A stretch of 33,806 bases of DNA from Sphingobacteriaceae bacterium (lineage in GTDB: Bacteria; Bacteroidota; Bacteroidia; Sphingobacteriales; Sphingobacteriaceae), in the NCBI GenBank assembly GCA_947479815.1, contig CANKAT010000031.1, positions 1-33,806 of the forward strand, given 5' to 3'. The notes beneath the pieces are model-generated. The model saw only the letters and a list, made by a program, of their open reading frames with translations, ran no database searches and was not told where the DNA came from. This document shows, piece by piece, positions 18,099 through 33,806 of this stretch. Position 1 is the stretch's first letter, and each line of letters opens with the position of its first letter. The translations under genes and the position numbers were made by a program.

Positions 18099-18113
18099 AA
18101 CGTTAAATTCCCC

Positions 18114-18204
18114 TTTTAGCTTTCAGCTTTAACCTTTTAGCTTTAGGCTTTTAGCTTTTAGCTTTCAGCTTTCAGCTTTAACCTTTCAGCTTTAACCTTT
18201 CAGC
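18114..18204. repeat. Heptanucleotide repeat, AAAGNNN family, locus 2 (13 units, inverted)
   Basis: Thirteen exact contiguous 7-nt units on the + strand: TTTTAGC, TTTCAGC, TTTAACC and TTTAGGC in mixed order. Read on the - strand this is AAAG followed by CTA, CTG, GTT or CCT, the same family as 607-676. It fills the gap between the convergent rfbB and permease genes. Confidence 0.88.
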
Positions 18205-18209
18205 TCCCT

Positions 18210-26516: not shown

Positions 26517-26546
26517 CCCTTCTATGAGAAATTTCTCCCTTCTTTC

Positions 26547-26616
26547 TTTCCCCTTTCAGCTTTCCCCTTTTAGCTTTCCGCTTTTAGCTTTAACCTTTCA
26601 GCTTTAACCTTTCCCT
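26547..26616. repeat. Heptanucleotide repeat, AAAGNNN family, locus 3 (10 units, inverted)
   Basis: Ten contiguous 7-nt units on the + strand: TTTCCCC, TTTCAGC, TTTCCCC, TTTTAGC, TTTCCGC, TTTTAGC, TTTAACC, TTTCAGC, TTTAACC, TTTCCCT. It shares units with locus 2 and, like it, lies between the 3' ends of two convergent genes. Confidence 0.87.
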
Positions 26617-26619
26617 CAA

Positions 26620-27402
26620 CTACCAGCTACCACTAGATCCCCCACCGCCAAAACTTCCGCCACCAAATCCACCGAATCCGCCGCCACCACCAAATCCACC
26701 GCCGCCACCAGAAAATCCGTCGAACCCACCACTATTACCTCTTCCAAGCTGTGAACCCATTAATAGCCACCAAAAAGGACTTGCACTTCCACGACCGCCA
26801 ATTACTTCACTTCCTCCTCCACCTTTTTTGATTGCAAGGAGTATGATAATGATCATGATGATTATAAATCCAATTCCACTTCCGCTTTTCCTCCCTTTTT
26901 TCTTAGGAGCATCGTTTTTATATTCACCTTTTGTGTACGAAATGATTGCATTTGTACCTTGATCTAGGCCTGAAAAGTAGTCGCCAGTTTTGAAATTTGG
27001 AGTGATCTCACGTTCAATAATTCTTTTGGTGATCGCATCAGGTAATGCCCCCTCTACGCCATAGCCCGTTTGAATGGTTACTTTTCTATCGCCAAGTGAG
27101 ACTAGCAATAATACTCCATTATTATTTTTTGCGCCTCCAATTCCCCATGCTTCTGCCAGTCTAACACCATAATCTGCTACATCGTAACCCTCTAGTGATT
27201 TGATCAGTACTACCGCAATTTGTGTGCTTGTTGAATCATTAAAGGCAACTAATTTTTGCTCAAGTTGATTGATCTGGTCTGGTGAAAGAGTTTGGGTGTA
27301 ATCATTCACAAGTCGATTAGGCTTTTCCGGAAAAGTTTGTGCCAGAAGCATTACACTTAGAAATAGAAATACGACTGTAGATATTAGGTGTTTAAATTTC
27401 AT
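26620..27402 (-). CDS. TPM-domain membrane protein with Gly-rich tail (YgcG-like)
   Basis: 260 residues from the start at 27402, chosen because it gives a proper signal peptide (hydrophobic to LLAQTFPEKP); the frame is open to 27471, but that part overlaps the upstream gene. A TPM domain (about 25-150) contains LVNDYTQTLSP, TQIAVVLIKSLEG and NNGVLLLVSLGDRKVTIQTGYG. A transmembrane helix follows (about 172-190) and then a Gly/Ser/Phe-rich low-complexity tail to the end. TPM proteins are found in photosystem repair and in bacterial envelope operons with lemA; biochemical activity in bacteria is unsettled. It is the last gene of the lemA operon. Confidence 0.85.
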   Translation of the reverse strand: MKFKHLISTVVFLFLSVMLLAQTFPEKPNRLVNDYTQTLSPDQINQLEQKLVAFNDSTSTQIAVVLIKSLEGYDVADYGVRLAEAWGIGGAKNNNGVLLLVSLGDRKVTIQTGYGVEGALPDAITKRIIEREITPNFKTGDYFSGLDQGTNAIISYTKGEYKNDAPKKKGRKSGSGIGFIIIMIIIILLAIKKGGGGSEVIGGRGSASPFWWLLMGSQLGRGNSGGFDGFSGGGGGFGGGGGFGGFGGGSFGGGGSSGSW

Positions 27403-31572: not shown

Positions 31573-32940
31573 TTAATTAATTTTCTGATTCACAATTCTC
31601 AACTCTTTTGGAAAGTAATTATTCAGTCGCTTATCCAGAATCTTGGCCCAGCCTAGGGGTTGATCTTTATAACACATCAAAGCCCAGCCTCGGTGATCTG
31701 ATTCCAGTCGCAGCTCTTCTCTTTTTAAAAAGGATATCGATTGGTCATGGCCTAGGTTGATCCGGTGAACATTAGGGTTATTCAAGAGGCTTACTGCCAG
31801 CTCATGATTTGGAACCAGGTCTTGCCCCATTACCTTACCTATTCTAATGCCTGATTTTTTGAGATAAAGCCTGGATTGCAAATAGGATAAGTCTGCTTCA
31901 AGACTGGCAGGAATAGCAAAAAACTCCTCTTGCAGATTTATTAATCTGATCTCGGGAGAATCGATCAGCCATCTTTTAATAATTTCTTTGTTCTTTACAT
32001 TGACTGTATTTTCTCTGGCTCTCCTAATCTGCGGGAATGCACTTATTGATTTTTTTCTGAAAGCAGCAATAAAAAATCCTTCTCCTTTTACTTTATGAGG
32101 ATAGAATCGGTATCCATAACATTGATGATCATCAGATTGTGTTTCCACGATTCCCCATTCAGTTTCTAGTGGTATTCTGATGCTTTCCAGTTCGAAAGTT
32201 TCAACAAGCCAGTCCGATATTTCTTCATTTTCTTGTTTAGAATAGGAGCAGGTAGAATAAATGAGCGTCCCGTTTTGTTTTAATGATTCAATCACGTCGG
32301 CAAGTATGCGCTGTTGCCTTTGGCTGCAAAGTTGAACTGCACTTTCCGACCATTCATTAATTGCTGCAGGATCTTTTCTGAACATGCCTGAGCCAGAACA
32401 GGGTGCGTCAACTATTATTACATCGAAATAACCTTCGAGTCTTTTAAAGTCTTTCGGGTCATTATTGCTGACAAATGTATTCTCTGGCCCCCATTTGTTC
32501 AGATTATCGCAAAGTACAGGCACCCTAGTTTTGATGATCTCATTGGCCAGTAATAAGCTTTCTTTAGTTAATAATGAGCTAATTAAAGTACTTTTTCCAC
32601 CCGGTGCGGCACACAGATCAAGAACTTTTAAGTTTTCTGATAGGTCAACAGTATTTTTTAGAACATGCTCCAGAAACATCGACGAAGCCTCTTGCACATA
32701 ATAACAGCCTGCATGAAATAAAGGGTCTGCTGTGAATGAAGGACGTTCAGTAAGATATCTGCCATTGATACACCAAGGAATTGGCTCAGAATTTGCAAAA
32801 GATTGAGAAGGCTTGAACGGATTTAGTCTTATAGAGGTCAGCTGTTCTCCAGTCGTATGTATTGCAATAAATTCTTCATCTTCAATAGAATAGTTTTCTT
32901 TTAAAGATCGAACTAGTGCAGGAGGCAGTTTACTTGTCAT
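31573..32940 (-). CDS. RsmB/RsmF-type rRNA (cytosine-C5) methyltransferase
   Basis: 455 residues from the start at 32940; the frame is open to 32985, but MTSKLPPALVRSL is the typical start. The class I methyltransferase core has SAM motif I LDLCAAPGGK (107-116), motif IV DAPCSGSG with Cys181, and motif VI STCSYS with catalytic Cys231, the two-Cys arrangement of m5C RNA methyltransferases. A C-terminal extension of about 170 residues resembles the RNA-binding part of RsmF/NOP2 relatives. It most likely methylates 16S rRNA. The gene is monocistronic, with a promoter that overlaps the start of the heptamer array at 32971. Confidence 0.9.
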   Translation of the reverse strand: MTSKLPPALVRSLKENYSIEDEEFIAIHTTGEQLTSIRLNPFKPSQSFANSEPIPWCINGRYLTERPSFTADPLFHAGCYYVQEASSMFLEHVLKNTVDLSENLKVLDLCAAPGGKSTLISSLLTKESLLLANEIIKTRVPVLCDNLNKWGPENTFVSNNDPKDFKRLEGYFDVIIVDAPCSGSGMFRKDPAAINEWSESAVQLCSQRQQRILADVIESLKQNGTLIYSTCSYSKQENEEISDWLVETFELESIRIPLETEWGIVETQSDDHQCYGYRFYPHKVKGEGFFIAAFRKKSISAFPQIRRARENTVNVKNKEIIKRWLIDSPEIRLINLQEEFFAIPASLEADLSYLQSRLYLKKSGIRIGKVMGQDLVPNHELAVSLLNNPNVHRINLGHDQSISFLKREELRLESDHRGWALMCYKDQPLGWAKILDKRLNNYFPKELRIVNQKIN

Positions 32941-32948
32941 AATTAATT

Positions 32949-32978
32949 CAAAAATACAGGAATACTTGATAAGACAAA
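32949..32978 (-). promoter_or_regulatory. Promoter for the rRNA methyltransferase, -33 box inside the heptamer array
   Basis: On the - strand, TTTG (32975-32978) and TATTTTTG (32949-32956) lie 18 bases apart, a full match to both Bacteroidota promoter boxes. Transcription would start very near the ATG at 32940, so the mRNA would have an extremely short leader. The TTTG is part of the first heptamer units. Confidence 0.5.
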
Positions 32979-33469
32979 GAAGCAAGAGTCAAGATGCAAG
33001 AACCAAGATCAAAGAACAAAGACAAAGGATCAAAGAACAAGGACTGCATACTGCTCATTTGAGATTTACTCCCTTTTTCTGACAACTGAGAACTGACAAC
33101 AGATAACAGACAACTGAAAATGGAACCAAGAACCAAGAACCAAGATCAAAGAACAAGGATCAAGGACTGCATACTGCTCATTTGAGATTTACTCCCTTTT
33201 TCTGACAACTGACAACTGATAACAGACAACAGATAACTGAAAATGGAACCAAGAACCAAGACAAAGGATCAAAGAACAAGGACTGCATACTGCTCATTTG
33301 AGATTTACTCCCTTTTCTGATAACAGACAACTGATAACAGATAACAGACAACTGAAAATGGAACCAAGAATCAAGAGTCAAGAACCAAGATCAAAGAACA
33401 AGTACTGCATACTGCTCATTTGAGATTTCCTGCTTTTTCTGACAACAGACAACTGACAACATCTTTTTT

Positions 33470-33504
33470 AGTATTGAGTATAGCGTATTGAGTATTGAGA
33501 TAAT
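33470..33504. repeat. Heptanucleotide repeat, AGTATTG family (inside the composite array)
   Basis: Contiguous units AGTATTG, AGTATAG, CGTATTG, AGTATTG, then a decaying AGATAAT. Period 7 but unrelated in sequence to the flanking families. Confidence 0.75.
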
Positions 33505-33526
33505 TTAGCTTCATTTCATAGCAGCA

Positions 33527-33568
33527 CCTCCTACCTCAGACCTCTTGCCTCCTACCTCAGACAGCAGA
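33527..33568. repeat. Heptanucleotide repeat, CCTCNNN family (inside the composite array)
   Basis: Units CCTCCTA, CCTCAGA, CCTCTTG, CCTCCTA, CCTCAGA, followed without a break in register by CAGCAGA and the next GACAACT-type block. Five units keep CCTC fixed and vary the last three bases. Confidence 0.78.
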
Positions 33569-33806
33569 CAACTGAAAATGGAACCAAGAACCAAGAACCA
33601 AGACAAAGGATCAAAGACAAAGGACAATTCAGTGCTCATTTGAGATTTACTCCCTTTTTCTGACAACTGACAACAGACAACAGATAACTGAAAATGGAAC
33701 CAAGAATCAAGAGTCAAGAACCAAGATCAAAGAACAAGGACTGCATACTGCTCATTTGAGATTTCCTGCTTTTTCTGACAACAGATAACAGATAACAGAC
33801 AACAGA

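Follow-up and report, generated by a model that had tools for sequence, protein, structure and literature searches.

The STRR heptanucleotide repeats of cyanobacteria are direct tandem arrays of 7-nt units, and MITEs and REP/REPIN sequences are short dispersed intergenic repeats that may accompany a small gene family. Heptamer direct repeats, TAACTGA and related sequences, have also been described from Beggiatoaceae, cyanobacteria and five Bacteroidetes in the parts of MacGregor (2015, PMC4679880) available to us. In Coxiella, heptameric repeats precede the S23p open reading frame (ORF) of an rRNA intervening sequence that has terminal inverted repeats and is cut in vitro by RNase III (PMC4990558, available in part). 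PF05635 denotes the 23S rRNA intervening-sequence protein (IVP), a four-helix bundle (TIGR02436) that is distantly Avd-like; the Avd accessory proteins of diversity-generating retroelements belong to the same broad protein family, as far as the accessible parts of PMC10053308 go.

The window analysed here is a whole stretch of 33,806 nucleotides from a Daejeonella-like genome of the Sphingobacteriaceae, and the heptamer array at its end is one copy of a scattered repeat. The array was rightly likened to cyanobacterial heptanucleotide repeats when it was first annotated. It resembles the TAACTGA repeats, as portrayed in the accessible parts of PMC4679880, in its 7-nt unit, intergenic position, many sets per genome, patchy presence in relatives and occurrence in the same phyla; TAACTGA-type heptamers are even present in one of its repeat families, family B. 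In those same parts, however, TAACTGA repeats are mostly single-family direct repeats before start codons, whereas arrays of the window kind are linker-bearing mosaics at gene ends.

We further describe paired inverted heptamer arms around PF05635 genes, a gene family unmentioned in the parts of MacGregor (2015) at hand. With the 23S rRNA intervening sequences that carry an S23p/IVP ORF, judged from the portions of the literature accessible to us, these elements share the PF05635 ORF and stem-forming inverted repeats. The intervening sequences sit inside rRNA genes, whereas the elements lie between protein genes, many per genome, and both of their arms are tandem heptamers of free sequence, unlike those of the rRNA intervening sequences. 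Such arms, which have no constant end motif, also set them apart from MITEs and REP/REPIN sequences.

Architecture of the array and its linker

Self-match at lag 7 and TRF confirm a composite heptamer array with six linkers at positions 32973-33806 (no strand assigned to it or to its parts), as the initial annotation had described. The array also runs to the end of the window as stated there, and it stops only where the assembly contig does. Self-match reaches 0.59 at lag 7, while lags other than multiples of 7 give 0.23-0.33, and TRF reports periods of 7, 14, 116 and 123. When the stretches fetched from the same genome were scanned at other lags, lag 8 gave three arrays and lags 5, 6 and 9 gave none. 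The array begins at most about 35 nt from the start region of an rRNA-methyltransferase-like gene on the minus strand (31573-32940).

Each unit runs from family A heptamers (ACCAAGA, ACAAAGA) through a linker of 34-35 nt into family B (CTGACAA, CAGATAA). The first A block (32973-33044) consists of GTCAAGA, ACCAAGA, TCAAAGA and ACAAAGA types and is followed by linker copy 1 (33045-33079, 35 nt) and the first B block (33080-33118; CTGACAA and CAGATAA types). Further linkers lie at 33168-33202 (copy 2), 33284-33317 (copy 3, 34 nt), 33406-33439 (copy 4, 34 nt, CCTGC variant), 33626-33660 (copy 5, AATTCAG start variant) and 33742-33775 (copy 6, 34 nt, CCTGC variant). The resulting linker-to-linker spacings are 123, 116, 122, 220 and 116 nt, of which three fit the originally proposed units of 116 or 123 bp, whereas 122 and 220 depart from them. 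An additional module of about 105 nt (33462-33566), made of GTATTGA and then CTCCTAC/CTCAGAC heptamers, lies within the 220-nt interval. Because this interval holds two further heptamer families, the array has at least four instead of the two first counted, and with these and its linker it is not a simple one-family array. The broader description, a composite higher-order array that varies in 7-nt steps within a larger duplicated unit, was correct.

The array encodes no ORF of its own except reverse-strand frames of 62-68 aa, and a PF05635 search of the window's contig returned no match. Its A and B blocks are not reverse complements. A hairpin structure was ruled out for the array, a 530-nt part of which folds no better than shuffled sequences (z +1.9 and +1.0 for the two strands).

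The linker had been called non-heptameric, which is true of its downstream side only. Towards family B it is out of register (distance 26 or 27), but counted from the nearest heptamer anchor upstream it falls on a multiple of 7 in 6/6 window copies, and at two loci of the same genome (L066 and L084) GTATTGA heptamers have grown within it. It is also shorter than the nearly invariant stretch of about 38 bases first reported. Near-invariance holds inside the window, where a 17-mer is exact in five of the six copies; this 17-mer occurs nowhere else in the genome. Diverged relatives are numerous: a profile search covering the window together with 34 fetched stretches gave 64 matches, and 50 of these linkers could be aligned with a mean column identity of 78%. 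The 50 aligned copies display neither consensus RNA pairing nor a palindrome or fold, and an Rfam scan of the window yielded no match; on these grounds a structured RNA was ruled out for the linker.

Dispersal within one clade and placement at gene ends

Used as a query, the window array gave 116 matches on 32 contigs of its own genome (hand count of the match table). For genome counts we used a sequence-only linker model made from the 50-copy alignment. Among 20 genomes of the genus, the linker is abundant only in the window's own genome (G000, 71 places), G004 (53) and G003 (21); single matches occur in G006, G012, G017 and G019, that in G017 being by eye one A-linker-B unit, and the other 13 genomes have none. 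Stricter settings, which lose weak matches, placed it in 4/201 genomes of a family sample, all of the genus, and in 1/395 genomes of a class sample, namely the window's own. The linker was thereby ruled out as a widely shared element, and it is equally not confined to the window, a case the initial annotation had envisaged, given its 71 places in this genome and its presence in relatives of the genus. In a single-protein tree, G000, G003 and G004 cluster as one clade (support 100/99). The initial proposal, in which function resides in the linker and the heptamers serve as spacers or as binding sites, is not supported, given the linker's lack of a fold or Rfam match and its abundance in three close genomes only. 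Heptamers are the more general feature, being present without the linker in other genomes of the genus and also as the paired arms of PF05635 genes.

At the arrays inspected in the window's genome the order A, linker, C (CTCAGAC/TTCATAC), B recurs, with exceptions, and at many loci the linker is flanked by A on one side and by C or B on the other, as parts of a dispersed unit of conserved order. This recurrence bears on two alternatives. Short reads might have collapsed or chained repeats into a higher-order arrangement that is unreal; in line with this, the array is cut off by the window end and several of its matches fall at contig ends. The same order nevertheless recurs in contig interiors, where genes flank it left and right (L060, L067, L073), and in two further species (G003, G004), and we regard an assembly artefact as highly improbable. 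Alternatively, the arrays could be pure slippage satellites that arose by 7-nt copying errors in tolerant untranslated sequence and subsequent unit duplication, their co-location with PF05635 genes being incidental. Slippage of 7-nt units was proposed by Mrazek, as cited in the accessible parts of PMC4679880, and agrees with arrays that abut stop codons and with the gene-less arrays common in one genome of the genus, G001 (see below). Independent slippage does not, however, give one and the same order at many separate loci.

The rRNA-methyltransferase-like gene beside the array has 73-92% identity to its six best named relatives, four of which are from Daejeonella and one from Sphingobacteriales; the closest (92%) belongs to a MAG labelled Pedobacter schmidteae (L039), and one short A-plus-linker unit lies upstream of the gene there. 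By eye, a 16S rRNA gene is located upstream of the methyltransferase-like gene in L040, L042 and L044, at the position of the window array. Three other heptamer arrays of AAGCTTA and CTTTCAG types are present in the window, at 604-679, 18107-18208 and 26543-26632, one in a co-directional spacer and two in convergent ones; the array at 26543 is found in L039 with other copies and is missing from L040. In addition, a 16-nt palindrome, CCCGATAGCTATCGGG, which looks REP-like, repeats in G000 and G016, several times within heptamer arrays (L065, L070, L072, L077, L079, L080, L091, L247 and L124/L288).

Placement was surveyed in the window and the 34 stretches, which were picked by matching the window array, so that the survey covers arrays of the window kind. 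By simple ORF calling, 61/62 array segments lie outside ORFs. The 43 segments with called neighbours on both sides comprise 16 in convergent, 12 and 10 in co-directional and 5 in divergent positions. Scored spacer by spacer, the counts are 15 convergent versus 3 divergent (one-sided binomial 0.004, under the expectation that the two kinds are equally common on a circular chromosome). Many arrays start no more than about 20 nt from a stop codon, and those at L058, L067, L073 and L087 span the whole gap from stop codon to stop codon.

PF05635 genes between heptamer arms

Searching the 20 genomes of the genus for PF05635 gave 114 matches in 18 of them, 6 marked as below the cut-off. We analysed two batches of loci. 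The first held 30, best matches first and at least one per matching genome, of which 28 had both flanks; the second held 40 further matches in roughly descending score, of which 39 were usable, and omitted loci that were already in the first, near contig ends or partial. Arrays of 7-nt units within 300 nt of the gene were found on the left, right and both sides in 14, 13 and 9 of the 28 loci and in 17, 17 and 10 of the 39. The corresponding counts are 21, 15 and 3 for 293 ordinary genes from a 400-kb sample of G001, and none of 30 TetR genes has such an array. The PF05635 flanks in both batches contain no arrays at lags 5, 6, 8, 9 or 10.

The usual pattern is a heptamer array upstream of the gene and the reverse-complementary array downstream of it, the heptamers varying from element to element. 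An inverted arm score of at least 19 was reached by 25/28 genes of the first batch and 31/39 of the second, 56/67 altogether, but by just 1/293 ordinary G001 genes and 1/30 TetR genes; this cut-off was picked after the first batch had been viewed and was then kept unchanged for the second. In direct orientation, the same score was reached by 1/28 and 5/39 PF05635 genes. Arms pair best with their own partners: the own mean is 24.8 versus 14.3 on permutation in the first batch (sd 0.9; maximum of 20,000 permutations 18.2) and 23.6 versus 13.3 in the second (sd 1.0; maximum 19.6). TetR flanks exhibit a small excess over permutations (12.5 versus 11.2). Stop codons served for a provisional assignment of strand and gene boundaries, an unreliable method where the match is as short as that of TetR, and a rerun with the longer open frame on the TetR genes, the first genus batch and the phylum set gave equal counts, with one TetR row (L222) misplaced in both runs. 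Alignment scores were preferred to RNA duplex energy, a weaker measure of pairing by which TetR flanks, too, pair better with their own partners (-72.2 versus -67.4, sd 1.6). Pure slippage does not yield reverse-complementary arms around a gene at the frequencies seen here, and taking this together with the conserved order of the composite units, we consider it an unlikely explanation.

Nine of the PF05635 loci, from nine species, represent one site between a gene ending in ...GKPLRN and a thiolase-like gene. The heptamers vary among these species, some of which share GTATTGA, and the duplex energy of the own arms is -76.7 versus -58.8 for exchanged arms, with 1/20,000 permutations equalling the own value. 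In the window's own genome, all five PF05635 genes above the cut-off are flanked by arrays left and right, while a sixth match (C26) scores below it; the second gene on contig C60 is flanked on both sides by the window's family A heptamers in direct orientation. For two PF05635 elements the predicted fold is far more stable than that of shuffled sequences (z -3.9 and -6.1), with the arms closing around the gene. Both own-genome PF05635 proteins compared with the Avd model match it weakly, at 27.9 and 30.1 bits and thus well under its cut-off of 80 bits; at the loci read, no reverse transcriptase was noticed beside the elements. Structures of relatives of the PF05635 proteins have been solved (2gsc, 2rld). 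Arrays also occur without the gene, 26 of them in the 400-kb sample of G001, which contains none of that genome's PF05635 matches. In L255:12150-12480 (G001), heptamer runs seem by eye to be in frame inside a GTPase-like ORF.

A search for the linker at PF05635 loci, covering 33 sources, recovered only the G017 linker locus itself and a weak match in L147 (E 0.009). As it was not found at the PF05635 loci searched, the linker was ruled out as the core of these elements.

Outside the genus, we read 13 of 34 plasmid records that hold a relative of an own-genome PF05635 protein; 11 of the 13 are cyanobacterial. Arrays flank the gene on the left in 7, on the right in 7 and on both sides in 6 of the 13 loci, all of these cyanobacterial, and 8 loci, seven of them cyanobacterial, score at least 19. 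Nostoc plasmids, for instance, pair GGGAGTA with TACTCCC and GGGAACA with TGTTCCC. These arms look like the STRR type, and the paired arrangement around a PF05635 gene is an addition to the direct arrays known as STRR. In a phylum sample of 29 loci, 8 score at least 19, and the flanks have 7-nt arrays at 3 loci on the left and 3 on the right and 8-nt arrays at 3 and 3; these lower counts and the 8-nt arrays indicate that the pattern is weaker beyond the genus and that the unit is not always 7 nt.

On plasmids of Pseudanabaena, Anabaena and Picosynechococcus (L232, L235 and L238), PF05635 genes were seen between cas6 and cas4 (on two of the plasmids) and between cas10 and a cmr3-type gene. The 23S rRNA IVP also appears in a CRISPR-related figure legend in the accessible part of PMC10910872. 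PF05635 genes within cas loci could be passengers.

One orthologous site

A convergent spacer of the window's genome, L067:4019-4500, was found by DNA search and read in the 20 genomes of the genus, its states being assigned partly by eye. It holds composite arrays in G000, G003 and G004, and a PF05635 gene beside heptamers in G006, G013, G015 (where the right-hand gene was not located) and G018. Inverted heptamer pairs without a gene are present in G014, G016, G017 and G019, inverted units of about 8 nt in G005, and A- and B-like heptamers in a different arrangement in G010. The spacer is repeat-free in G001, G002, G007, G008, G011 and G012, and G009 was left unassigned. A transposase-like ORF with TTTACCGGACAG-type ends lies within the heptamers of this spacer in G006 (L277) and G018 (L290). 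Since composite arrays and PF05635 genes alternate at one and the same spacer, an array of the window kind occupies the site of a PF05635 element of sister species.

Heptamers or linkers that bind a protein or RNA and thereby act on neighbouring genes, for example on translation or termination, would suit the gene-end position and the excess of convergent spacers, and MacGregor proposed translational regulation by the Beggiatoaceae TAACTGA repeats (PMC4679880, available in part). The latter lie just before start codons, however, whereas the arrays described here favour gene ends. Moreover, close species differ in the sequence or presence of repeats at this one spacer, 6/20 genomes being repeat-free, and a conserved fold is lacking. 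We rate a regulatory role as quite unlikely.

The comparison also bears on a non-autonomous, MITE- or REP-like element that is mobilized by an unrelated transposase and has the linker as its recognised core. The dispersal of linker copies in conserved order within one clade would be expected of such an element, and the idea overlaps with the first step of the origin proposed below. Yet the one-site comparison reveals neither a constant terminal motif nor a target duplication, the repeat-free and repeat-bearing spacers differing too much in length and sequence for a duplication to be read, no transposase associated with the linker was noticed, and the linker has no palindrome or fold; we judge this explanation quite unlikely. 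To our knowledge, PF05635 proteins have no transposase activity.

Proposed origin and implications

On the basis of these results, we somewhat favour a reading of the window array as a composite relative of heptamer-armed PF05635 elements, one that lacks the gene, has overgrown and was amplified in one small clade. Descent from a PF05635 element is suggested by the site, the period and the family A heptamers that the two have in common. In their compact form, heptamer arrays would make up both arms of a small element that is set between genes and bears a PF05635 gene. With a heptamer run as one arm and its reverse complement as the other, the transcript is predicted to close into a stem around the gene, by analogy with the stem of rRNA intervening sequences. 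Such a stem may make an insertion between genes tolerable, and it may undergo processing of the RNase III type. The arms, whose heptamers differ from element to element, presumably grow and shrink by 7-nt steps. In the three-genome Daejeonella-like clade, a derived composite of A, the 35-nt linker, C and B would have lost the pairing, increased in number within loci as units duplicated, and reached dozens of places through copying or recombination. Its copies lie mostly in gene-end spacers, where extra DNA would cost little, and it would have become a dispersed satellite there. The window array itself is probably without a function of its own for the host.

Several observations argue against this origin. 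The linker was not found at PF05635 loci, the window array does not fold and gene-less arrays are common in G001. Furthermore, some arms are direct, the phylum sample shows a weaker association than the genus does, and TetR flanks score slightly above their permutations.

More tentatively, and with a little less than even confidence, we suggest that many bacterial heptamer arrays, STRR, TAACTGA and window types among them, are the arms, or the debris, of a single element class that is widespread yet undescribed, in which a PF05635 gene lies between reverse-complementary short tandem repeats. Elements of this class would enter spacers and operons in several phyla, their arms changing heptamer yet staying complementary, and the rRNA intervening sequences would be a special case. 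Heptamer repeats (PMC4679880, available in part) and IVP-bearing rRNA sequences are already known; their joining outside rRNA genes may be new. Among the open-licence PMC papers that our searches listed, which are weak evidence of absence, no title or opening of an abstract joins PF05635 or four-helix-bundle genes to heptamer arrays outside rRNA genes.

For the annotation of CRISPR and other operons, the elements carry a warning, as PF05635 genes found there may be passengers and not working parts. Heptanucleotide repeats and stand-alone genes for four-helix bundles (IVP, S23) are both common and both unexplained. The strong association of PF05635 with paired arms of free sequence opens both to testing and suggests an origin for the repeats and a possible target for an Avd-like protein.
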